Shown: positions 37,625 through 55,132 of the stretch, in pieces
How the letters are laid out: each line of letters opens with the position of its first letter
Position numbering within the stretch: the first letter of the stretch is position 1
DNA from: Halorubrum aquaticum
GTDB lineage: Archaea > Halobacteriota > Halobacteria > Halobacteriales > Haloferacaceae
NCBI RefSeq assembly: GCF_900113615.1
Contig: NZ_FOPZ01000006.1
Coordinates: 1-64,000 of the forward strand
Reading direction: 5' to 3'
Length of the DNA: 64,000 nt
Translations under genes and position numbers: made by a program
Notes under the pieces: generated by a model
Seen by the model: only the letters and a program-made list of their open reading frames with translations
What the model was told of the DNA's origin: nothing
The model's database searches: none

Positions 37625-39103
37625 ATGTCAGTTGAACGGATATCAACGGGCGTTAGTGGTTTGGATGAGGTTCTGGACGGTGGTCTCATTCGGGGCCGAA
37701 ATGTTCTCGTCCGTGGGTCGCCGGGTTCGGGGAAGACAATCTTCGGATTACACTTCCTTTCGGCTGGGATAGATGACGAAGAGACCGCTCTGTACATTAA
37801 TATGGGTGAGCCGCAGGCGTACGTCGAAGAAACAGCCGACGCGTTCGGTCTCAATACTGAGCAGATACAATTTCATAACCTCTCGCCGACCCAAGAGCAG
37901 TTCTCAGAGCGCAACTCCTACAGCGTCTTCGAATCAGCTGAAGTCGAACAGCCGGAGTTTATTGAAGATCTACGCGACGAAGTCGACAAAATCAAACCAG
38001 ATCGTGTGTTGCTTGACCCGATCACAGAGTTTCGATATCTTACCAGCGATGAACGGCAATTCCGCTCCGGTGTTCTTGGCCTCCTCGACTATCTCAAAGA
38101 GGTTGGCGCGACGGTGATGCTCACTTCGCAGGCTGGCGGTTCAATCACGGACGACGATATTCAGTTCCTCGTCGACGCTGTCATCTCACTTGATGTGACT
38201 CCCGAAAGCAGGGCAGTCAACGTCTCCAAGTTCCGAGGGTCGTCGTTCCGACGTGGAAATCACTCCTACGATATTACTGACGAGGGACTGACGGTCTGGC
38301 CGACACTCGTTCCCGGCGAACAGGAGCGAGAGGTCGAATCGGGGACGCTCTCTTCGGGTGTGGCGGAACTTGACGATTTGCTCCACGGTGGCTTAGATCA
38401 GGGAACCGTAACAATACTCAGCGGTCCGACTGGCGTCGGCAAGACCACGACCGGTCTCCAGTTTCTCATTCAGGCGGCTCTTGAGGGCAAACAGAGCATT
38501 CTATTCCAATTTGAAGAGGCAGAGCGGACCATCCGCAAACGAGCCGACGCGATCGGCCTCCCGCTACAGGATGCGCTGGACAGCGGACAGCTCTCCATCG
38601 TCGAAATCGATCCGGAAGAGTATACGGTCGGCGAATTTGAGGATCTCGTCCGCGAGGCGGTCACCGACGGTACCGAAGTGGTGATGATCGATGGCTCACA
38701 GGGCTTTCAGGAGAATCTCCGTGGGCTTGACAACACGACGGGTGCGTTGTTGCGGATCGGCCGATTCTTGCGGGCCGCTGGCGTCTCCACGATCCTCGTC
38801 AATGAGGTTCACAATATCACTGGAGACTTCCATGCGACCGAAGAGCGGACGAGCAATCTCGCGGACAACATCATGTTCTTGCGTCATGTTGAGTATCGCG
38901 GGAAGGTGCGGAAGGTCATCGGGACGCTGAAGATGCGGACGAGCGACTTCGAACGTAGCCTCCGGGAACTCGAAATTACGGCGGACGGGATCCGTGTCGG
39001 AGAGCCTCTTCCGCAGCTTCGGGGTATTCTCACCGGGACGCCGGAGTGGAACGATACGGATACTGCCAGCAAACACGACGTTGACAACGACGAACAGACG
39101 TAA
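37625..39103 (+). CDS. KaiC-like two-domain RecA-fold ATPase
   Basis: This 492-residue protein has two RecA/KaiC domains in tandem. Walker A sites are GSPGSGKT (31-38) and GPTGVGKT (about 267-274); the Walker B strands are VLLDPITEF (about 128) and VVMIDGS (about 352). Archaeal KaiC-like proteins are signal-relay ATPases rather than proven clocks. It is followed 50 bases later by a histidine kinase and then by a second overlapping one, a pairing that suggests the KaiC protein and the kinases form one signalling pathway. The N-terminus MSVERISTGVSGLDEVLDGG is the family start. Confidence 0.93.
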   Translation: MSVERISTGVSGLDEVLDGGLIRGRNVLVRGSPGSGKTIFGLHFLSAGIDDEETALYINMGEPQAYVEETADAFGLNTEQIQFHNLSPTQEQFSERNSYSVFESAEVEQPEFIEDLRDEVDKIKPDRVLLDPITEFRYLTSDERQFRSGVLGLLDYLKEVGATVMLTSQAGGSITDDDIQFLVDAVISLDVTPESRAVNVSKFRGSSFRRGNHSYDITDEGLTVWPTLVPGEQEREVESGTLSSGVAELDDLLHGGLDQGTVTILSGPTGVGKTTTGLQFLIQAALEGKQSILFQFEEAERTIRKRADAIGLPLQDALDSGQLSIVEIDPEEYTVGEFEDLVREAVTDGTEVVMIDGSQGFQENLRGLDNTTGALLRIGRFLRAAGVSTILVNEVHNITGDFHATEERTSNLADNIMFLRHVEYRGKVRKVIGTLKMRTSDFERSLRELEITADGIRVGEPLPQLRGILTGTPEWNDTDTASKHDVDNDEQT

Positions 39104-39153
39104 CTGTCGCACGAAATGAGAGAACAGTCATAGGAGTCGCCGATCCGAACATC

Positions 39154-40695
39154 ATGCCCACGAACGAACAGCATACGAATCGAGAAGCAGTCGACGAATC
39201 CAAGCGCGTGCTCACTTTGGTCACTGACCCGGGAAATCAGCGTGTCCTCGAAGAGTGGCTAACCGCACACGATCAGTTCACGCTCGTCGAAACCTCGGAT
39301 ATCGCCGAGGCTGCATTCGACTGTTGTCTGCTCGACAGAAAGCAGTTGGACAAACACCGGTCGAAACTCCTGAACCGAAAAGAAAGCGAGCAGATTATTC
39401 TCCCGTATCTCTTGTTGGTTCCGGAGTCAAGACATCGAGAGATCCGTAATCGTCTCCGGGATGAACATCCGGAACTGTGGGATGCGATTGACGGGTTGAT
39501 CGACATGCCACTCGCAGAAAGTCAACTCAGTGAACAGCTAGAGACATTTCTACGCCTTCGGGATCAGTCGATCGCCGCATACAATCAGCGAGCACAACTC
39601 CGGCAGATCCGGAATCAACACGCCGGTCACGGGGTGTTAGTCACCGACACAGACGGAACAATCGAGTACGTGAACGAAGGATTTGAATCTCAGTCAGGCT
39701 ATACGAGCGAGGAAGTTGTCGGTAACACCCCGCGCATTCTCAAATCAGGTGAACACGATGAGGCGTTCTATGAGGAGTTGTGGAACACCATCACATCGGG
39801 TGACGTCTGGGACGGTACAGTCATCAACAGTCGAAAAGATGGGGATCGGTATGTTATCGAACAGACGATCGCTCCGGTAGAAGGCCCTGATGGAGATATT
39901 ACGCAGTTCATCGCCGTCAACCACGAAATTACTGAGCTGAGAGAGCTAGAAGAGAGTCTCCGCCAGCAACGCGAGCAACTCGACGTGTTGAACCGAGTTC
40001 TCCGACACGACATCCGGAACGATATGAACGTTGTTGTCGCGTGGGGCGAAATGCTTGAAGATGAGGTAACGCCAACTGGACAGGAGAAACTCGACAGGAT
40101 TCTCCGGGCGGGGCGACACGTCGTCGAACTCACGAATGTCGCCCGAGATCTCTCAGAAATCATTCATGGTGACGGGACGCCGGACCTCAAGCCGATCTCA
40201 CTTCGACAGCTCCTTAGTGAGGAACTCGAAAAGCGCCGGGAAACGTTCGCAAATGCCGAGATCACGATGGCAGATCCTCCCGATCAGAGGACACACGTGC
40301 TGGCGAACGAGTTGCTCTCGTCGGTGTTTCGGAACCTCGTCAACAACGCCGTCCAGCACAACCATACAGCTCAACCAAAGGTGATGATTTCTGTTGAGGA
40401 ATCTGACGAGTCAGTCCGCATCAGAGTGGCCGATAACGGGCCAGGAATCTCAGACGATGTGAAAGAAAGCCTGTTCCGAGAGGGTAAGAAAGGGCTTGAA
40501 AGCGGGGGAACCGGAATGGGCCTGTTTCTCGTCGACAGTCTTGTTGAGAGTTACGGCGGAAATGTCTGGATCGAGGACAGAGTGGAGAGCGAATTGTTCG
40601 ATACTCCTGACGAAGCGGATCCAGCCGGCACGGTTTTTATCGTCGAGTTACGGACGACGGCGAAACAGGACAAAATCGATCGAGGACGTGAATGA
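39154..40695 (+). CDS. PAS histidine kinase, partner of the KaiC-like gene
   Basis: This 513-residue soluble kinase has a receiver-like N-terminal region (1-125, VLTLVTDPGNQRVLEEWL) that lacks the usual phospho-Asp. A PAS domain follows (about 150-275, GVLVTDTDGTIEYVNEGFES), then the H-box NRVLRHDIRNDMNVVVAWGE (His about 285). The HATPase is about 375-500: NLVNNAVQHNH, VADNGPGISDD and GTGMGLFLVDSL. It overlaps the next kinase gene by ATGA. The pseudo-receiver may bind KaiC or sense the cell state. Both kinases share this architecture and probably arose by tandem duplication. Confidence 0.93.
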   Translation: MPTNEQHTNREAVDESKRVLTLVTDPGNQRVLEEWLTAHDQFTLVETSDIAEAAFDCCLLDRKQLDKHRSKLLNRKESEQIILPYLLLVPESRHREIRNRLRDEHPELWDAIDGLIDMPLAESQLSEQLETFLRLRDQSIAAYNQRAQLRQIRNQHAGHGVLVTDTDGTIEYVNEGFESQSGYTSEEVVGNTPRILKSGEHDEAFYEELWNTITSGDVWDGTVINSRKDGDRYVIEQTIAPVEGPDGDITQFIAVNHEITELRELEESLRQQREQLDVLNRVLRHDIRNDMNVVVAWGEMLEDEVTPTGQEKLDRILRAGRHVVELTNVARDLSEIIHGDGTPDLKPISLRQLLSEELEKRRETFANAEITMADPPDQRTHVLANELLSSVFRNLVNNAVQHNHTAQPKVMISVEESDESVRIRVADNGPGISDDVKESLFREGKKGLESGGTGMGLFLVDSLVESYGGNVWIEDRVESELFDTPDEADPAGTVFIVELRTTAKQDKIDRGRE

Positions 40696-42521
40696 ACGAC
40701 GCGTACCCTACGGACGATTCACCCGATGATGGCGCTGGGCAGGCAGCCTTGTTCCCATTACTCTCTGGAGAGGGGAATCAACGGTTGGTGGTTGAGTGGA
40801 TCCAAGCCCATGACCGCTATACGCTGGTCGATCCGGACCAGCCGGTCGAAACAGCGACGTTCGACTGCTGTATCCTCGATGGGGAGATGCTACAGACACA
40901 CGCTGAGACGCTTCGAGCCCGAAAACGCAAGGCGAAGCCGGCTCTGTTGCCGTGTCTTCTCCTCATACCGGAGGCGGACCTTTCACTCATTGAAACTGAC
41001 AGTGGGGAGATTGCCGACAGCGTCGTGTTCGAAACCGCCGACGAGGTGGTCTCGATGCCGATTAAAAAGGCTGAACTAGAGTGGCGGACACAGGCGCTCG
41101 TCAGGCTGCGAACCCAGTCGCAGCGCCTCAAAGAACGGACAGAGACGCTGGAACTGTTCAAGCAGGCCGTCGAAGCCTCCGGTCACGCCATCTGGATATC
41201 CGATACGGACGGAACGATCAACTACGTCAATCCGGCGTTCGAATCGATCACGGGCTACAGCCGAGACGAGGCTGTCGGCGAGTCACCGAATCTTCTCAAC
41301 TCCGGAGAGATGGACGACGACTTCTACAGCGACCTCTGGGAGACGATTACCGCTGGTGACACGTGGCACGAGGAGATTACCAACCAACGCAGCGACGGCT
41401 CGCAATACGTCGCCGATCAGACGATCGCACCCATCGTCGAAGACGGGGAGCCGAGAGCGTTCGTCGCCGTCCAGACCGATATTACCGAACGGAAAGAACT
41501 CGAAGGTCGGCTCTCGTTGTACCGCGATATCATCGAACGGCTTGAGGATCCGATCATGATCCAGACCTGTGAGGGGGAGTTTCGGCTGGTTAATGACGCG
41601 CTGTGTTCGTTCGCCGGGCTATCGAGAGATGAACTGCTCGGCGACGGCGAATACACGTTTATGGATGAAGAAACTGCCACGACGATCGCCCGACAGAAAC
41701 AGCGCGTGATCGAAACGGAACAGCCGGTCGAATACAGCGTTGAGCCGACGTTCAAGCACAGCGACAGAGAGGCGATCTTCTATACGAGTCGGTACCCCTA
41801 CTACGAGGACGGAGAGCTCGCGGGGACGCTGGCGATCTGCCGGAACGTGACTGATCTCGAAGAACGGACCCGACAGCTCCACGTACTCGATAATATCCTG
41901 CGGCACAATATCCGCAACGAGCTGAACGTGATCCATGGTCGGGGTGAGCAGCTCCGAGGCGATCTAGAGGGCGAACTCGAAGCCGCTGCCGGCACCATCG
42001 TCGACCGGGCCGAAACACTGTTGACGACGAGCGAGAAGTCGCGGAAGATTACGACTGTTCTCAGTGACCCACGCGAGCCGATCTCAGCAGATATCGGGCA
42101 GGTGGTTCGGGTTCTCGCCGAAGAGATAGCCGGCGACTGGCCCAACGCAGAGATTGACGTTACAGGCCCGACAGAGCTCGTCGTCTCCGCAAACGAATCG
42201 ATTAGTGCCGCACTCGAAGAACTGTTTACCAACGCTGTAATCCACAACGACAGCGAAGAACCCCATGTGTGTGTCGACCTCACTGTCGACGGATCGTGCG
42301 GCGTTCTCCGCGTGCGGGACAACGGTCCGGGCATTCCGGAGTTCGACACAGATGTCCTCGAAGCGGGAGAGGCTATTGAGACACTCTCACACGGTAGTGG
42401 ACTGGGACTGTGGCTGGTCTACTGGATAATTAACCATTCCGGAGGTGAGATTCACGTTGACGAGCGCGAGCCACGCGGCACCGAAATTACAATCTGGCTT
42501 CCGCTGGAAACCGATGTATAG
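40692..42521 (+). CDS. Two-PAS histidine kinase, second partner
   Basis: This 609-residue kinase has a receiver-like N-terminus (1-125) similar to the preceding gene (VVEWIQAHDRYTLVDPDQPV beside VLEEWLTAHDQFTLVETSDI). Two PAS domains follow (about 155-265 and 275-390), the first with AIWISDTDGTINYVNPAFES. The H-box is VLDNILRHNIRNELNVIHG (about 395-413). The HATPase has TNAVIHNDSEEP, VRDNGPGIPEFD and GSGLGLWLVYWI. It is translationally coupled to the upstream kinase. After its stop comes decayed IS DNA, so it ends the operon. Confidence 0.93.
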   Translation: MNDAYPTDDSPDDGAGQAALFPLLSGEGNQRLVVEWIQAHDRYTLVDPDQPVETATFDCCILDGEMLQTHAETLRARKRKAKPALLPCLLLIPEADLSLIETDSGEIADSVVFETADEVVSMPIKKAELEWRTQALVRLRTQSQRLKERTETLELFKQAVEASGHAIWISDTDGTINYVNPAFESITGYSRDEAVGESPNLLNSGEMDDDFYSDLWETITAGDTWHEEITNQRSDGSQYVADQTIAPIVEDGEPRAFVAVQTDITERKELEGRLSLYRDIIERLEDPIMIQTCEGEFRLVNDALCSFAGLSRDELLGDGEYTFMDEETATTIARQKQRVIETEQPVEYSVEPTFKHSDREAIFYTSRYPYYEDGELAGTLAICRNVTDLEERTRQLHVLDNILRHNIRNELNVIHGRGEQLRGDLEGELEAAAGTIVDRAETLLTTSEKSRKITTVLSDPREPISADIGQVVRVLAEEIAGDWPNAEIDVTGPTELVVSANESISAALEELFTNAVIHNDSEEPHVCVDLTVDGSCGVLRVRDNGPGIPEFDTDVLEAGEAIETLSHGSGLGLWLVYWIINHSGGEIHVDEREPRGTEITIWLPLETDV

Positions 42522-47216: not shown

Positions 47217-48272
47217 TCAGCCGAGGAAGTCGATTCCGGTCACTTCGAACCTCGCCCCACCGGATCGCGCGTCGGTGGCGATGATATCCCACCCATGTGC
47301 GTTGACGATCGTCCGAACTACTGAAAGCCCGTAGCCGTGGCCGTCGTCGCTTGTGGTGAACCCATGATTGAAGACATCCCCTTTGTGCTCGTCGGAGATT
47401 CCTGGACCATCATCCTCGATGAAGAAACCTGTGTCGAGCGGGCCGACACGGACCGTTACGTCACCCCCACCATGGTCCACGGCGTTCTGGAACAGGTTCT
47501 CGAACAGCTCACAGAGTCGGTCGGGTTCGCTGCTCACCGACGGAATCGTCTCGTATCGGAGGGTTACACCGGCGTCGGCGTTCAAGCTCTGCCAGGCCGT
47601 CTCAATGACGTCACCGATATCAGTTGGTTCTGGGTCGGTGATGACGTTGCCCTGTCGCGCCACGCGGAGCAGATCCTCGACGAGCCGTCCCATCCTCTTG
47701 ATCGTCTCGTTGATCGTTTTGAGATGCTTCTCGTCACCGGTGTCCTCGTACAGGGTCATATTCCCTTCAATAATGTTTAGTGGGTTCCTGAGATCATGCG
47801 CGAGGATATCGGTGAACTCTTTGAGACGGTCGTTTTGGCGCTCCAACATCCGTTCGTACTCCTTCGTCGTTGTTGTGTCTTGACTAACCGCTGCGTACCC
47901 GTGAAACGTTTCGTTCCACAGAGGAGACAGCGTCAGCGTTCCCCAGAAGACGGATTCGTCGGCCCGCCGATGCCAGTGTTCGAACTCAACCACGTCAGTT
48001 TTCGGTTCCTCAAAGAACTCTTCAGGGAGGGGATTGGGCTCTGACCCGTCTTCGTCGTCGGCGAACAACAGCCTCACGGTCCGATCGATCACCGCTTCTG
48101 CGTCGTGTCCGTAGAGTGCTACCGCTGGTGCGGGCCACGAGATTATGTTTCCGTCGGCGTCGAGCATGAAGATCGCGTGACTGGAGATACCTTCGAGAAG
48201 ACGATGGGCGACAGCCTCTCCCGATTCGGACTGTTCATCCGGATGACTAGGTGAATCGAGAGCATCCATCAT
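47217..48272 (-). CDS. PAS histidine kinase
   Basis: This 351-residue soluble kinase has a PAS domain at about 25-135 (AIFMLDADGNIISWPAPAVA). The H-box is EFTDILAHDLRNPLNIIEG (His about 158). The HATPase domain is about 235-351, with LFENLFQNAVDHGG, EDDGPGIS and GHGYGLSVVRTIV. It ends just beside the IS end at 47198. The final GGARFEVTGIDFLG matches the C-termini of the kinases ending at 25298 and 53770, so the three share a recent common ancestor. Confidence 0.92.
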   Translation of the reverse strand: MMDALDSPSHPDEQSESGEAVAHRLLEGISSHAIFMLDADGNIISWPAPAVALYGHDAEAVIDRTVRLLFADDEDGSEPNPLPEEFFEEPKTDVVEFEHWHRRADESVFWGTLTLSPLWNETFHGYAAVSQDTTTTKEYERMLERQNDRLKEFTDILAHDLRNPLNIIEGNMTLYEDTGDEKHLKTINETIKRMGRLVEDLLRVARQGNVITDPEPTDIGDVIETAWQSLNADAGVTLRYETIPSVSSEPDRLCELFENLFQNAVDHGGGDVTVRVGPLDTGFFIEDDGPGISDEHKGDVFNHGFTTSDDGHGYGLSVVRTIVNAHGWDIIATDARSGGARFEVTGIDFLG

Positions 48273-48753: not shown

Positions 48754-49410
48754 ATGAGTGTTATTGTCGAGCTAACTATTCCATCCGGGGCGTTCGAGTT
48801 GGGACGGATCCTCCGGGTCGAAGGGGCAACTCAGATCACGCTCGAAACAATGGTGCCGTTAGGTGGGAGACCTACACCTTTCATTCGGATCCGGAACGAC
48901 GAACGGGAGATGTTCGAACGCTCCGTCCGCGAGCACCCGTCAGTCAACGCGATCCAACTCGTCAACACACACGGGGACGAAACGCTATACTCGCTGGACT
49001 GGGAACCATCTGACTCCTCGCTGCTGCGGCGGATTCTCGATCTGGACGCGGTACTACTGGATGCAACCGGAACCGCCGACACGTGGAAACTCGAACTTAG
49101 ATTTCCGAGTCATGAGGCGCTCTCGAAATTCCAGGAATTCTATATTACGGAGGAGATCAAGGTGTCGATCAAACGAATCTACAATCCAACGAAACCCGAT
49201 GCAGGGCCTTGGTACGGATTAACACCGCCGCAACGCGAAACGCTTACGCACGCTGTAGAGGCTGGATACTACTCGCTGCCGCGGCAGATATCGACACAAG
49301 AGCTCGCAGACACGTTTGACATCTCTGATCAGGCCGTCACTGAACGTCTTCGGCGGGGAATATCCACGATAGTGATGAACACGCTGTTGGTCGATAAACA
49401 GGAAGACTAA
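48754..49410 (+). CDS. Bacterio-opsin-activator-like HTH_10 regulator
   Basis: In this 218-residue protein the N-terminal 150 residues match the Bat-type sensing region (VIVELTIPSGAFELGRIL and LLRRILDLDAVLLDATGT). The C-terminal HTH_10 domain (about 155-210) begins GLTPPQRETLTHAVEAGYYS, then LPRQISTQELADTFDISDQA and VTERLRRGISTIV. Such regulators respond to light, oxygen or kinase input in haloarchaea. It is a stand-alone gene; the divergent small gene and nearby kinases suggest a role in their pathway, inferred. Confidence 0.93.
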   Translation: MSVIVELTIPSGAFELGRILRVEGATQITLETMVPLGGRPTPFIRIRNDEREMFERSVREHPSVNAIQLVNTHGDETLYSLDWEPSDSSLLRRILDLDAVLLDATGTADTWKLELRFPSHEALSKFQEFYITEEIKVSIKRIYNPTKPDAGPWYGLTPPQRETLTHAVEAGYYSLPRQISTQELADTFDISDQAVTERLRRGISTIVMNTLLVDKQED

Positions 49411-49579: not shown

Positions 49580-49813
49580 TCAAGCAGCATTGACTGTGAG
49601 ATATTCTCCATTGTATACCTTAACAATGGAGTTACTGTACGCAAATGAGACACAGGCATTTGTTCTATCTACAAATATTGTATCTAATGCATCGGGGTCT
49701 ATCGCCGTGATTAGTTCCGGAAGATCAGAGATCGCGATATTCTCCAATTTACTTACGGCAATCGTAACTCCGTGACTTACTGACTCCTCAGTATCAATCT
49801 CATATTTCATCAA
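49580..49813 (-). CDS. HalOD1-type output-domain protein
   Basis: This 77-residue protein has the HalOD1 pattern: SVSHGVTIAVSKLENIAISD, then LPELITAIDPDALDTIF and a short beta hairpin ending VKVYNGEYLTV. HalOD1 is a haloarchaeal output domain found alone or fused to kinases and receivers. Two related genes (53810-54046 and 54893-55132) lie within 6 kb. The direct target is unknown. Confidence 0.8.
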   Translation of the reverse strand: MMKYEIDTEESVSHGVTIAVSKLENIAISDLPELITAIDPDALDTIFVDRTNACVSFAYSNSIVKVYNGEYLTVNAA

Positions 49814-50087: not shown

Positions 50088-50447
50088 ATGAAAGAGACTT
50101 CTGAGCCTGAAAAGAGTAAACCGGCTGACGACGAATCAATAGGGGGCTCGGAGCGGGTTAGAGAACAACTGACTGACGTAACACATCTGAATTACATCTC
50201 TAAAGACAAAATCAAGCAGGTCCTGGAGTTCGGTAGAGAATTTCTATCAGTAAACGATAAATATCCAATAAGTATCGAGGAACCCAATCACTGGGAAGTA
50301 AGTTCTAGTACCAGTTCACAAGCGGTACAGCTTCTCCTGGCCCTCAGTTCCACTCTTGAGAACACTCACTGTCGACGAATAGGCAGATCACGATCACAGA
50401 GGTGTCTCAGAGTTGGTCGGATCCGATGTCGTGATAGTAAAATATGA
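50088..50447 (+). pseudogene. Decayed copy of the GAF-type N-terminus of the next kinase
   Basis: RVREQLTDVTHLNYISKDKI and QVLEFGREFLSVNDKYPISI match the start of the kinase at 50444 (QARQQLYEVMRSDRSFDQKA and IALELGRRYLSVDNAHLTRI). Later ENTHCRRIGRSRSQ shows the TTYCRRTIRADDQ region but in a shifted frame, after which ITITEVSQSWSDPM reads in another. It is a truncated, frameshifted duplicate ending just before the intact gene (overlap of four bases). Confidence 0.75.
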
Positions 50448-53400
50448 GTGACAGTATCGAAACAGAAATTGATTTTGATCTCTCTGAATTAAGTGACAAC
50501 CAAGACAAGACGCCTTCGCCAAGTCAGGCGAGACAGCAACTCTACGAGGTGATGCGCAGTGATCGTTCATTCGACCAGAAAGCTCGGATTGCGCTCGAAC
50601 TCGGGAGACGGTATCTAAGTGTGGACAACGCGCACCTCACACGGATCGACGAGAAGACCGATCACTGGGAAGCCATCATGAGTACAGATTCGGCCGACGG
50701 AGACTTCCCGCCCGGGCTGGAACTCGATCTCGAGACAACGTACTGTAGACGAACGATCAGAGCCGACGACCAGATCGCACTCTACGACGCCCCAAACCAA
50801 GGGTGGGCCGATGACCCTGCATTCGAGGCGCACGGACTCCACTGCTATCACGGCACGACGCTCGTCCTCGATGGCGAACCGTACGGTACGCTCTGTTTCG
50901 TTTCAGAGAATCCCCGTGCTGATCCGTACAATGAGGGCGAGACGATGTTTACGGAACTGATCGCCCGCATGCTCGAACGCGAACTCGAGAACGAGCGCCA
51001 CGAGTCATTACTCACTCGACAGACCAATCTCGCTGTGGTGCTCAACCGCGTTCTCCGGCACAACCTGCGGAACAACATGTCCGTTATCCGCGGATATACC
51101 CAGATTATGGCCGATAAGCTGGACAACAAAACCATTGGGGAGATCTCGCTTCGCAACATCGATCGCCTCATAGACCTTGGCGAAAAGGCGGGCGAACTGG
51201 ATCGTATCATCGCCAGTACAGAGGAGAGCGTCCAGACCGATGTCCAAGCGCTCGTTCAAGAACTTGCCGACGAAATCCAGCAAGAACACCCGCAAGCTTC
51301 GATCTCAGTACTTTCGGACGAACAAATCACCGCCGACCTCCTGCCGAGTTTCGAGCGAGCAATCACAGAATTGATCAAGAACGCGGTCAAGCACAGCGGT
51401 ACCACTCCCACGGTCACGATCACCGTTACCCGCGTGCCGAACGCGGTCGAGATCACTGTCTCGGACGACGGGCCGGGGTTAGCCCAACACGAAATAGACG
51501 TATTCGAGGCAGGTTCCGAGACTCCACTCACTCACGGGTCAGGGCTGGGACTGTGGCTCGTCTACTGGATCGTGACCAACCACGACGGCTCGATCGACGC
51601 CACATCCAGTGACGACGGGACCACGGTGACCGTGTCCGTGCCGGGACAGCAGGTTTCGACTACTGAAGACCAAGTTGCTTCGCTTTCCCGGGCGCGCGAT
51701 CGGTACAAATCCGCCTTCGAAGAGGCCGGCGACGGGATGACGATCACCGATCAAGAGGGACACATTCTGGACGTGAACACCGAAGCAGCCCAGACATATG
51801 GGCTGGATAAACAGCAATTGCTCGGCCGTTCGATCGGAGAGTTTCTCCCTGATAACGTCGGCTACGACACGATCTGGGAGAACGCCGACAGTGATTCGAG
51901 ACACTGTGAGATGTCGGTACAGAGCACAGACGGGACGCGTCGTCTGATCGAATGTACGGCGAAAGCAGATTTTGTGCCCGGCCAGTCGCTCATCATCAGC
52001 CGTGATATCACCGACCGAAAAGAACGCGAACGGATCCTCGACTCCCGGACTCGACAGCTCCGAACCGTAATGAACAACGTGGACGCGGCGATGTGGATCC
52101 GAGACGCCGACGACGGATACGTCCTGATAAATCAACATTTCCGAGAGCTGTTCGGCATCGAAACTGACGCTCCGGTCAACGGAGAGACGGCCGACGATCT
52201 GTTCTCGGAAGACATTGCATCGCAATTCCAGGCAAACGATCAGCGCGTCTGGGAAACGGGCGAGCCGGTCGAGATCGAAGAAACGGTCGAAACGAGCGAC
52301 AGTACCCGAACGTTTCTAACGCGGATCTGTCCGATTTTTGACGACGGAATCGTGTCGGCCACGTGCGGTATTGCAACGGATATCACCGCTCAGAAAGGCC
52401 GAGAACGCGAACTCGCCGAAGCCACTCAGCGGCTCGAATCGGTCGTTGAGATCTCGCCGGACCCGATCTTCGTTTTGGACGTCGACGGGCGGATCGAACT
52501 GTGGAACGACGCGGCGGAAGACGTGTTCGGCTACTCCAGAGATGAGGTGATCGGGACACAGTTAAAGTCACTGGGCCTGTTGGACGCCGTCCAGAGCGGA
52601 TCGTTTGAAGATCGGTTCGCCCGTTTGCTATCGGGTGAAACAATTCGTGATCTGAGAGTCACGAGGAGAGCGAAGAATGGCGACGTCTTACAGCTAGAAC
52701 TTTCGGCAGCACCGCTCAGAGATGCCGCTGGAACGGTCACGGGAGTGGTCGCGGCGGCCCAAGACGTTACAGAGCGAACGAACCGTATCCAGAAGCTAGA
52801 GCAGTACGAGGCGGCGTTTAAAAAGGCGGGCGATGGCATCACCATCACTGACGACGAAGGGAGTATCTTAGAAGTTAACGCGGAAGCGGCACAGATCTAC
52901 GGCGAGGAACGAAGCGAGCTTCTGGGCCGCTCGATGCAAGAGTTTCTACCGACAGAGTTCGACTTCGAGGCGGAGTGGGGGGCAGCCCAGGCCGCGGAGA
53001 TGAAACGCGACGAAGTAGACGTGTTGAGTGCTGACGGGGGTCCACAGACGATTGAGTACACGGCTGTGCCCTACTTTTTGCCGAACCAGCATCTCATCGT
53101 CAGCCGTGACGTTACTGACCGGAAATCTCATCAACGGGAGCTCGAAGCAAAACTCGAACGGTTGAACAAGTTCGCAGGGACGGTGTCACACGACCTCCGA
53201 AATCCACTAAGTGTCGCACAAGGGAGACTAGACCTCGCATCCGACGAACTCGACAGCGAGCATTTCGAACCGATCGAGCGCGCTCACAGGCGGATGGAAT
53301 CGCTGATCGACGACGTACTCACGCTGGCACGGTCCCCTTCGACAGTCGCAGACACCGAACAGATCAACCTCTCCACGATTATCACTAGGTGCTGGGCGAA

Positions 53401-53770
53401 TGTTGAAACGGGCACTGCGACGCTTTCCGTCGAGAGTATGCAGCCGATTCAAGCGGATGAGGGACGGCTAAAACAACTCTTCGAGAATCTATTCCGAAAC
53501 AGCATCGAACACGGGGGCGAAAACGTGACGGTAACGGTTGGTGAATTAGACGATGGATTCTACGTCGAAGACGACGGTATCGGTATTGATACCGCCGAAC
53601 GTGAGTACGTGTTCGAGGACGGGTATTCGACAAGAGAGGAAGGAACAGGCTTCGGGCTGACGATCGTCAAGCAGACCGTCGAGGCTCACGGCTGGAATAT
53701 CCGTGTAACAGACGGACCTGACGGGGGCGCACGGTTCGAGGTCACCGGGATAAAGTTCACCGCAGAGTGA
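50444..53770 (+). CDS. Giant sensor protein with two histidine-kinase cores
   Basis: This 1108-residue protein has a GAF-like N-terminus (about 30-180), then a first kinase core: H-box NRVLRHNLRNNMSVIRGYTQ (His about 206) and HATPase about 290-405 (SDDGPGLAQHEI, GSGLGLWLVYWI). Four PAS domains follow (about 420-535, 540-650, 655-775 and 780-895). A second core comes last: H-box FAGTVSHDLRNPLSVAQGRL (His about 916) and HATPase about 1000-1108 (EDDGIGID, GTGFGLTIVKQT). The two cores belong to different subtypes, so this looks like a fusion of two kinase genes rather than a duplication. No receiver domain or membrane segment is present. Confidence 0.93.
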   Translation: MSDSIETEIDFDLSELSDNQDKTPSPSQARQQLYEVMRSDRSFDQKARIALELGRRYLSVDNAHLTRIDEKTDHWEAIMSTDSADGDFPPGLELDLETTYCRRTIRADDQIALYDAPNQGWADDPAFEAHGLHCYHGTTLVLDGEPYGTLCFVSENPRADPYNEGETMFTELIARMLERELENERHESLLTRQTNLAVVLNRVLRHNLRNNMSVIRGYTQIMADKLDNKTIGEISLRNIDRLIDLGEKAGELDRIIASTEESVQTDVQALVQELADEIQQEHPQASISVLSDEQITADLLPSFERAITELIKNAVKHSGTTPTVTITVTRVPNAVEITVSDDGPGLAQHEIDVFEAGSETPLTHGSGLGLWLVYWIVTNHDGSIDATSSDDGTTVTVSVPGQQVSTTEDQVASLSRARDRYKSAFEEAGDGMTITDQEGHILDVNTEAAQTYGLDKQQLLGRSIGEFLPDNVGYDTIWENADSDSRHCEMSVQSTDGTRRLIECTAKADFVPGQSLIISRDITDRKERERILDSRTRQLRTVMNNVDAAMWIRDADDGYVLINQHFRELFGIETDAPVNGETADDLFSEDIASQFQANDQRVWETGEPVEIEETVETSDSTRTFLTRICPIFDDGIVSATCGIATDITAQKGRERELAEATQRLESVVEISPDPIFVLDVDGRIELWNDAAEDVFGYSRDEVIGTQLKSLGLLDAVQSGSFEDRFARLLSGETIRDLRVTRRAKNGDVLQLELSAAPLRDAAGTVTGVVAAAQDVTERTNRIQKLEQYEAAFKKAGDGITITDDEGSILEVNAEAAQIYGEERSELLGRSMQEFLPTEFDFEAEWGAAQAAEMKRDEVDVLSADGGPQTIEYTAVPYFLPNQHLIVSRDVTDRKSHQRELEAKLERLNKFAGTVSHDLRNPLSVAQGRLDLASDELDSEHFEPIERAHRRMESLIDDVLTLARSPSTVADTEQINLSTIITRCWANVETGTATLSVESMQPIQADEGRLKQLFENLFRNSIEHGGENVTVTVGELDDGFYVEDDGIGIDTAEREYVFEDGYSTREEGTGFGLTIVKQTVEAHGWNIRVTDGPDGGARFEVTGIKFTAE

Positions 53771-53809: not shown

Positions 53810-54046
53810 TCAATCTACCTTTTCCATTTGTACTCCGTCGATGAGTATCTCACCGTTTCCTGTGACTTCTACGACGTGGTTTGGAATTTCAAACTGGAGT
53901 CGCCATGAATTACTCTCATGATTATTCAAGTTAGTAATTGCGTCAGTTGAGACGTAGTAATAGATTTGCGAATCAAGGTCGCTGGGTTCAACGCCCTCTA
54001 CCTCCGCAATGCTCTCGATGATCGACTCAAGGAGAATTTCGTTCAT
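53810..54046 (-). CDS. HalOD1-type output-domain protein
   Basis: In this 78-residue protein, ESIIESIAEVEGVEPSDLDS and QIYYYVSTDAITNLNNH follow the HalOD1 order of a first helix, a linker with ASP-rich turn, and a C-terminal beta hairpin (HVVEVTGNGEILIDG). It ends 39 bases after the giant kinase on the opposite strand. An A/T-rich region upstream (54050-54110) carries its likely promoter. Confidence 0.8.
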   Translation of the reverse strand: MNEILLESIIESIAEVEGVEPSDLDSQIYYYVSTDAITNLNNHESNSWRLQFEIPNHVVEVTGNGEILIDGVQMEKVD

Positions 54047-54892: not shown

Positions 54893-55132
54893 CTACTCTT
54901 CCACAAGAATATCCACGCCCTCCGCTGACACACTCAGTCGAATCCCCTCGACAGTAAATTTAACAGTCACATTGCCGTCTGGTGAGGCTATCAACTTATC
55001 GAGTGCTTCAACATCGACGTACTCATGCAGTTGATAAGCGTCGTACTCTAGTCCGCAGGCCTCCAGTGTTTCGACGATCTCGACCACGAGATCATCTGGT
55101 CCGTTGGAACTGTTCGATGGCGAGGTATACAT
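54893..55132 (-). CDS. HalOD1-type output-domain protein
   Basis: In this 79-residue protein, DLVVEIVETLEACGLEYDAY and EYVDVEALDKLIASPDGNVT, followed by VKFTVEGIRLSVSAEGV, fit the HalOD1 layout. It is the third of the type in this region. No other domain. Confidence 0.8.
   Translation of the reverse strand: MYTSPSNSSNGPDDLVVEIVETLEACGLEYDAYQLHEYVDVEALDKLIASPDGNVTVKFTVEGIRLSVSAEGVDILVEE

Follow-up and report, generated by a model that had tools for sequence, protein, structure and literature searches.

A recurrent haloarchaeal histidine kinase with two conserved kinase cores and no receiver domain

The gene at positions 50444..53770 (+) of a 64,000-nucleotide stretch of Halorubrum aquaticum DNA, hereafter the window, codes for a genuine fusion of two complete sensor-kinase modules and belongs to a recurrent set of receiver-less two-core histidine kinases in which both cores are conserved. 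In a census from 2010, a receiver accompanied the cores in 96.2% of the proteins with two transmitters (PMC3018481), and it is for this reason that the relay is almost invariably the interpretation given to such proteins. The same census counted two transmitters in 2 of 15,704 non-hybrid kinases (PMC3018481), which agrees with the initial annotation of the window, where tandem kinases of this kind had been called rare. The window protein fits this nearly empty class. The two census proteins, matched to ours by class, likewise combine two transmitters without a receiver, whereas the haloarchaeal set comprises 12 proteins and has a fixed order, with an RHN-type core first. Our literature search found no paper titled on receiver-less two-core kinases in archaea, and the main-text passages of PMC5847659 that it covered make no mention of them.

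Results

Domain architecture of the window protein

The reading frame from 50444 to 53770 (+) is open throughout, with no break, and specifies a protein of 1108 amino acids with the domain order GAF-HK1-PAS-PAS-PAS-PAS-HK2. Pfam recognised one GAF domain (residues 47-180), two HisKA domains, two HATPase_c domains and four PAS stretches, with E-values that rule out chance (3.1e-41 for HATPase_c and 1.4e-18 for HisKA), whereas neither Response_reg nor Hpt was found at E-values up to 1. Profile searches placed the GAF domain, the presumed input of core 1, at residues 32-187 (50537..51004, +; PF01590, E 2.6e-8) and core 1, which is of the RHNLRN type, at residues 198-400 (51035..51643, +). The H-box region of core 1 is RVLRHNLRNNMS with His206 (codon 51059-51061), and its HATPase_c domain covers residues 303-401. 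The four PAS domains were placed at residues 420-530 (PAS1, 51701..52033, +), 538-655 (PAS2, 52055..52408, +), 663-783 (PAS3, 52430..52792, +) and 787-898 (PAS4, 52802..53137, +). PAS1 is of the type that follows core 1 throughout the family, PAS3 is 45-49% identical to the second PAS domain of other two-core proteins, and PAS4 is up to 68% identical to their first PAS domain. Core 2, of the SHDLRNP type, lies at residues 896-1097 (53129..53734, +), with HisKA at 907-964 followed by HATPase_c, and carries His916 (codon 53189-53191) in the motif VSHDLRNPLS.

Each core thus has what defines a histidine kinase, a DHp histidine and a HATPase_c domain with N, G1 and G2 boxes, and the protein as a whole is a non-hybrid kinase with two transmitters, without a receiver and without Hpt. 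The initial annotation had described two cores of different subtype, with their H-box motifs, separated by four PAS domains and without a receiver, and Pfam and the profiles bear out this description in motifs, domain order and domain count. The protein is probably soluble. An AlphaFold2 model built from a three-row alignment had a mean pLDDT of 44 and was too poor for use.

Fused homologues in other haloarchaeal genomes

According to the initial annotation, the fusion would have to be read as an assembly error at the junction near 51650 if homologues were always two separate genes. Fused homologues are, however, present in nine other genomes. Halorientalis persicus codes for a complete fusion of 978 aa (L021; 49% identity to the window protein) and Halolamina pelagica for one listed with 1128 aa (L022; 51% identity), and in these two independent assemblies the sequence is conserved across the junction. 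Invariant positions run from the end of core 1 (W375-P400) over Q410, LSRARD (414-419) and YK (421-422) to FEEAGDGMTITD (425-436). An assembly error or a chance joining of two genes might be suspected from the transposase genes nearby, one 2.4 kb downstream of the window gene and another at 44.5-45.8 kb, from a decayed GAF remnant directly upstream and from the existence of split relatives. Against this stand the nine genomes with the same kind of fusion, in continuous frames and with conserved junction residues, and we regard this explanation as extremely improbable; as the two-core layout recurs in related archaea, it is no sequencing mistake.

The GAF remnant (50088..50447, +) is a 119-aa open reading frame that overlaps, with its stop, the start codon of the two-core kinase gene. 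It is of the same GAF type, being matched by 42 of 61 GAF queries in tblastn (best E 1.3e-13 at a database size of 100,000), and corresponds to the first half of the domain; homology seems to continue past the conserved CRR in another frame until stop codons intervene, so that we see a degraded, frameshifted piece and no intact gene. It probably marks a second copy of a GAF-kinase gene that was lost.

A survey of haloarchaeal genomes for the same fusion, as the initial annotation had proposed, covered the family and the order and identified GAF-headed two-core genes also in genomes G039, G050, G069, G088, G119, G143, G151 and G180, the gene in G050 being the Halolamina gene L022. Two further two-core proteins in G180, with stop-to-stop frames of 1583 and 1696 aa, start with PAS rather than GAF, bringing the total to 12 proteins in 10 genomes, the window included. 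Within the window's own genome, the 84 matches listed comprise 27 other places of the core-2 type and 20 other places of the core-1 type, and no other frame with both. Relatives of the GAF-core-1 module were detected at E <= 1e-85 in 29 genomes of the family, out of 170, and in 40 of the 392 genomes sampled from the order. At E <= 1e-70, 13 of the 392 genomes sampled from the phylum had them, all 13 within the same order, and none was found outside it in this sample. No PLSDB plasmid record covered 80% of the window protein, and 51 records match it partially.

Core types were assigned by H-box motif for 66 genes, 61 of which are rows in the core-1 tree; those left out are L022 (the same gene as L061), L098 and L121 (GAF before an SHDLR-type core), and L064_1758 and L068_1338 (PAS precedes the core). 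The 61 GAF-core-1 genes divide into 10 two-core genes, 36 with one core followed by one to six PAS domains and 15 with a bare GAF-core-1. In the group of 36 (e.g. L062, L106 and L107) the core lies near the N-terminus and the C-terminus consists of the PAS domains, with nothing beyond. As core-1-type kinases occur alone with GAF (15/61) or with GAF and PAS (36/61), and single core-2-type kinases occur in the window genome, each module can exist by itself. The pairing of different subtypes, which the initial annotation had stressed, is found in the window protein, but is no rule, the second core of L058 (G119) being of the RHDIRND type.

Conservation of both cores

The phosphoacceptor His, the N-box Asn and the G1 box are kept in 10/10 GAF-headed two-core proteins in each of the two cores, and the G2 box is kept in 10/10 for core 2 and in 9/10 for core 1, the exception being L080 with an altered core 1 G2 (HSMGLG). 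Both cores are therefore conserved, although the conservation of motifs is no proof of activity. For H. persicus and Halolamina, the closest pair, Nei-Gojobori dN/dS values were 0.15 for GAF, 0.21 for core 1, 0.19 for PAS and 0.25 for core 2, and both cores are under purifying selection in this pair; dN/dS values against more distant relatives are only rough because synonymous sites are near or at saturation. One of the two cores might be no kinase in practice and serve as a dimerisation scaffold, or as a phosphatase acting on the other core's receiver. Such roles are common for HisKA cores in general, and the degenerate G2 box of L080 would be in keeping with them; the complete retention of His, Asn and G1 in both cores and their similar dN/dS values speak against it, and we consider a non-kinase core rather unlikely.

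Evolution of the two-core layout

The window protein belongs to a haloarchaeal GAF-core1-PAS family, which we define here by a GAF domain, an RHN-type core immediately behind it and then a conserved PAS type. When the two-core layout was mapped on the core-1 tree of 61 genes, seven changes were needed, of which at least four are forced by well-supported branches, and a tree holding the ten two-core genes together in a single clade was rejected (AU p = 9.4e-5), which indicates more than one gain or loss of the second core. In a quick core-2 tree, made without L058 with its other core type, five of the nine two-core proteins group together (the window protein, L060, L056, L021 and L061; SH-aLRT 85), and the others are scattered with weak support among single-core kinases.

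The first PAS domain after core 1 has its best match in PAS1 (11) or PAS4 (34) of the window protein in all 45 other genes that have such a domain, and in none of them in PAS2 or PAS3. PAS1 and PAS4 are 50% identical to each other with a score of 277, and the remaining PAS pairs score 31-61. The conserved post-core-1 type is thus present twice in the window protein, at both ends of the PAS array, and this arrangement suggests that fusions may arise by recombination between PAS repeats.

Split relatives and receivers

Pfam found no Response_reg domain in the window protein, in the nine other GAF-headed two-core proteins or in the two PAS-headed giants. Like TodS, the window protein has two transmitter modules in one chain, but neither it nor the 9 + 2 relatives has a receiver between them. 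Three genomes encode the same core types in the same order as an adjacent pair, GAF-core1-PASn and REC-PASn-core2, which differs from the fusions in consisting of two genes, the second of which opens with a receiver. In the near-identical loci of G146 and G090, nine bases separate the TGA of the GAF-core1-PAS-PAS gene from the start (ATG) of the next gene, which the profiles resolve as REC-PAS-PAS-PAS-core2; G038 has the same gene order with a second gene of the form REC-PAS4-core2 (Response_reg, PAS, HisKA and HATPase_c in Pfam). Since a receiver lies between the cores in these unfused relatives, as in TodS, a receiver that was once present may be missing from some of the fusions.

These neighbouring genes would suit a TodS-like relay in trans, in which phosphate would pass from core 1 to a separate receiver protein, from there to His916 of core 2 and on to a second receiver. 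In TodS, where a receiver sits between the two cores, phosphate follows a His-Asp-His-Asp relay (PMC4321377). However, a receiver is present in 0/12 fused proteins, and the fused core 2s and their split neighbours do not form one group in the quick core-2 tree, where support is mostly weak. We therefore view such a relay as unlikely.

Neighbourhood of the window gene

Among the neighbours of the window gene we recognised no gene for a receiver. A regulator gene with Pfam BAT and HTH_10 domains and without a receiver (48754..49410, +), a possible output partner, lies 1034 bp upstream. Four other two-core genes (L021, L056, L063 and L101) likewise have a BAT-HTH_10 gene as a neighbour, at 137-450 bp, so that one is found within about 1 kb of 5/10 GAF-headed two-core genes versus 1/51 other GAF-core-1 genes, L095 being the sole single-core case (Fisher p 2.4e-4, a test that ignores relatedness). 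Weaker or more distant HTH_10 matches were not counted (L022/L061 at 1.8 kb, L122 at 2.9 kb, and a PAS-HTH_10 fusion 242 bp from L116). In the window, the BAT-HTH_10 gene stands divergently to a PAS-kinase gene of the LAHDLRNP type (47217-48272, -), and of 40 loci that surround the closest BAT-HTH_10 relatives, 16 have the same divergent pair.

MsmS and RdmS of Methanosarcina acetivorans have one core each. They too are archaeal multi-PAS/GAF kinases that act with regulators without receivers, but are described as lacking a phosphorylatable His, whereas the haloarchaeal two-core proteins keep both (review PMC6944256). By analogy with these systems, the output of the two-core kinase could be the adjoining BAT-HTH_10 regulator rather than a two-component receiver. 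Against this, an independent-pairs test gave p = 1, albeit with 4 pairs only, and the window regulator has a better supported partner in the divergent PAS-kinase; the cores of such divergent kinases are not sister to the two-core cores in the quick core-2 tree, with L080 as a weak exception. Because of this divergent partner, and because the Fisher test ignores relatedness, the link between BAT-HTH_10 and the two-core kinase is only suggestive, and we judge it quite improbable that this regulator is the output.

Around the window gene lie three stand-alone HalOD1 genes (49580-49813, 53810-54046 and 54893-55132, all -; Pfam). As HalOD1 genes are near only 2/10 two-core genes and 3/51 others, they were dropped as partners. 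Elsewhere in the window, a KaiC-family ATPase gene is closely followed by two PAS-kinase genes of the RHDIRN/RHNIRN type (37625-42521, +).

Stressosome-like operons upstream of core-1-type kinases

In G180 (twice; L165 and L166) and G304 (L168/L169), genes for PAS-STAS, STAS, HATPase_c_2 and SpoIIE/PP2C-like proteins, a set resembling RsbR-S-T-X (RSTX), directly precede a giant core-1 kinase. Two of these kinases are giant two-core kinases. The G304 contig corresponds to plasmid pHSR-CO of Halanaeroarchaeum sp. HSR-CO, and on it core 2 has a 203-aa frame of its own that starts 12 bases further along. On a Halobaculum halophilum plasmid (L170), a module of the same kind precedes a single core-1-type (RHNLRN) kinase, which is followed by a REC-HalX gene, a candidate receiver in trans for this kinase. 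RsbRSTX modules are reported from some archaea and bacterial ones precede two-component genes (PMC9237108), and the core-1-type kinases behind RSTX operons are candidate outputs of archaeal stressosomes; the parts of PMC9237108 covered by our search contain no description of a two-core kinase in this role.

Discussion

The window protein is a histidine kinase and not a TodS-type hybrid, as a receiver was searched for and is absent. TodS and TmoS from Pseudomonas are likewise single soluble proteins with two complete transmitters, each of which is served by a separate sensory domain (PMC4321377). TodS differs in its receiver, which is placed between the modules, and in its His-Asp-His-Asp relay, whereas in the haloarchaeal two-core proteins, which lack the receiver, the first input is a GAF domain and two to seven PAS domains lie between the cores, with an extra GAF domain in two proteins.

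Phosphotransfer from His to His normally proceeds via an Asp intermediate. Mutual phosphorylation of the two cores, which the initial annotation had raised as one option, found nothing in its support, and the window protein has no receiver. The other option raised there, that the protein may integrate two signals, is plausible. We propose that each module would have its own input, with the GAF domain driving core 1 and the PAS array driving core 2. Each core would dimerise with itself, autophosphorylate its own His and pass the phosphate on in trans, to receivers on other proteins. The fusion would tie both inputs to one dimer, such that the state of one module could bias the other mechanically, and would ensure that both modules are made in equal number. 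We give this proposal, with its two inputs and two outputs and a coupling of the modules within the dimer, an even chance of being right.

One might speculate more generally that haloarchaea repeatedly fuse GAF-driven and PAS-driven kinases of different subtype, in some lines without an intervening receiver, and that the modules then communicate through the shared dimer instead of a phosphorelay, their targets being regulators that are distant or have no receiver; we put this forward as a doubtful generalisation. The outputs of archaeal kinases are largely unexplored (PMC6944256), and a set of proteins that recurs without a receiver and keeps both cores intact provides a natural test of whether two kinases can be coupled in one chain without a phosphorelay.
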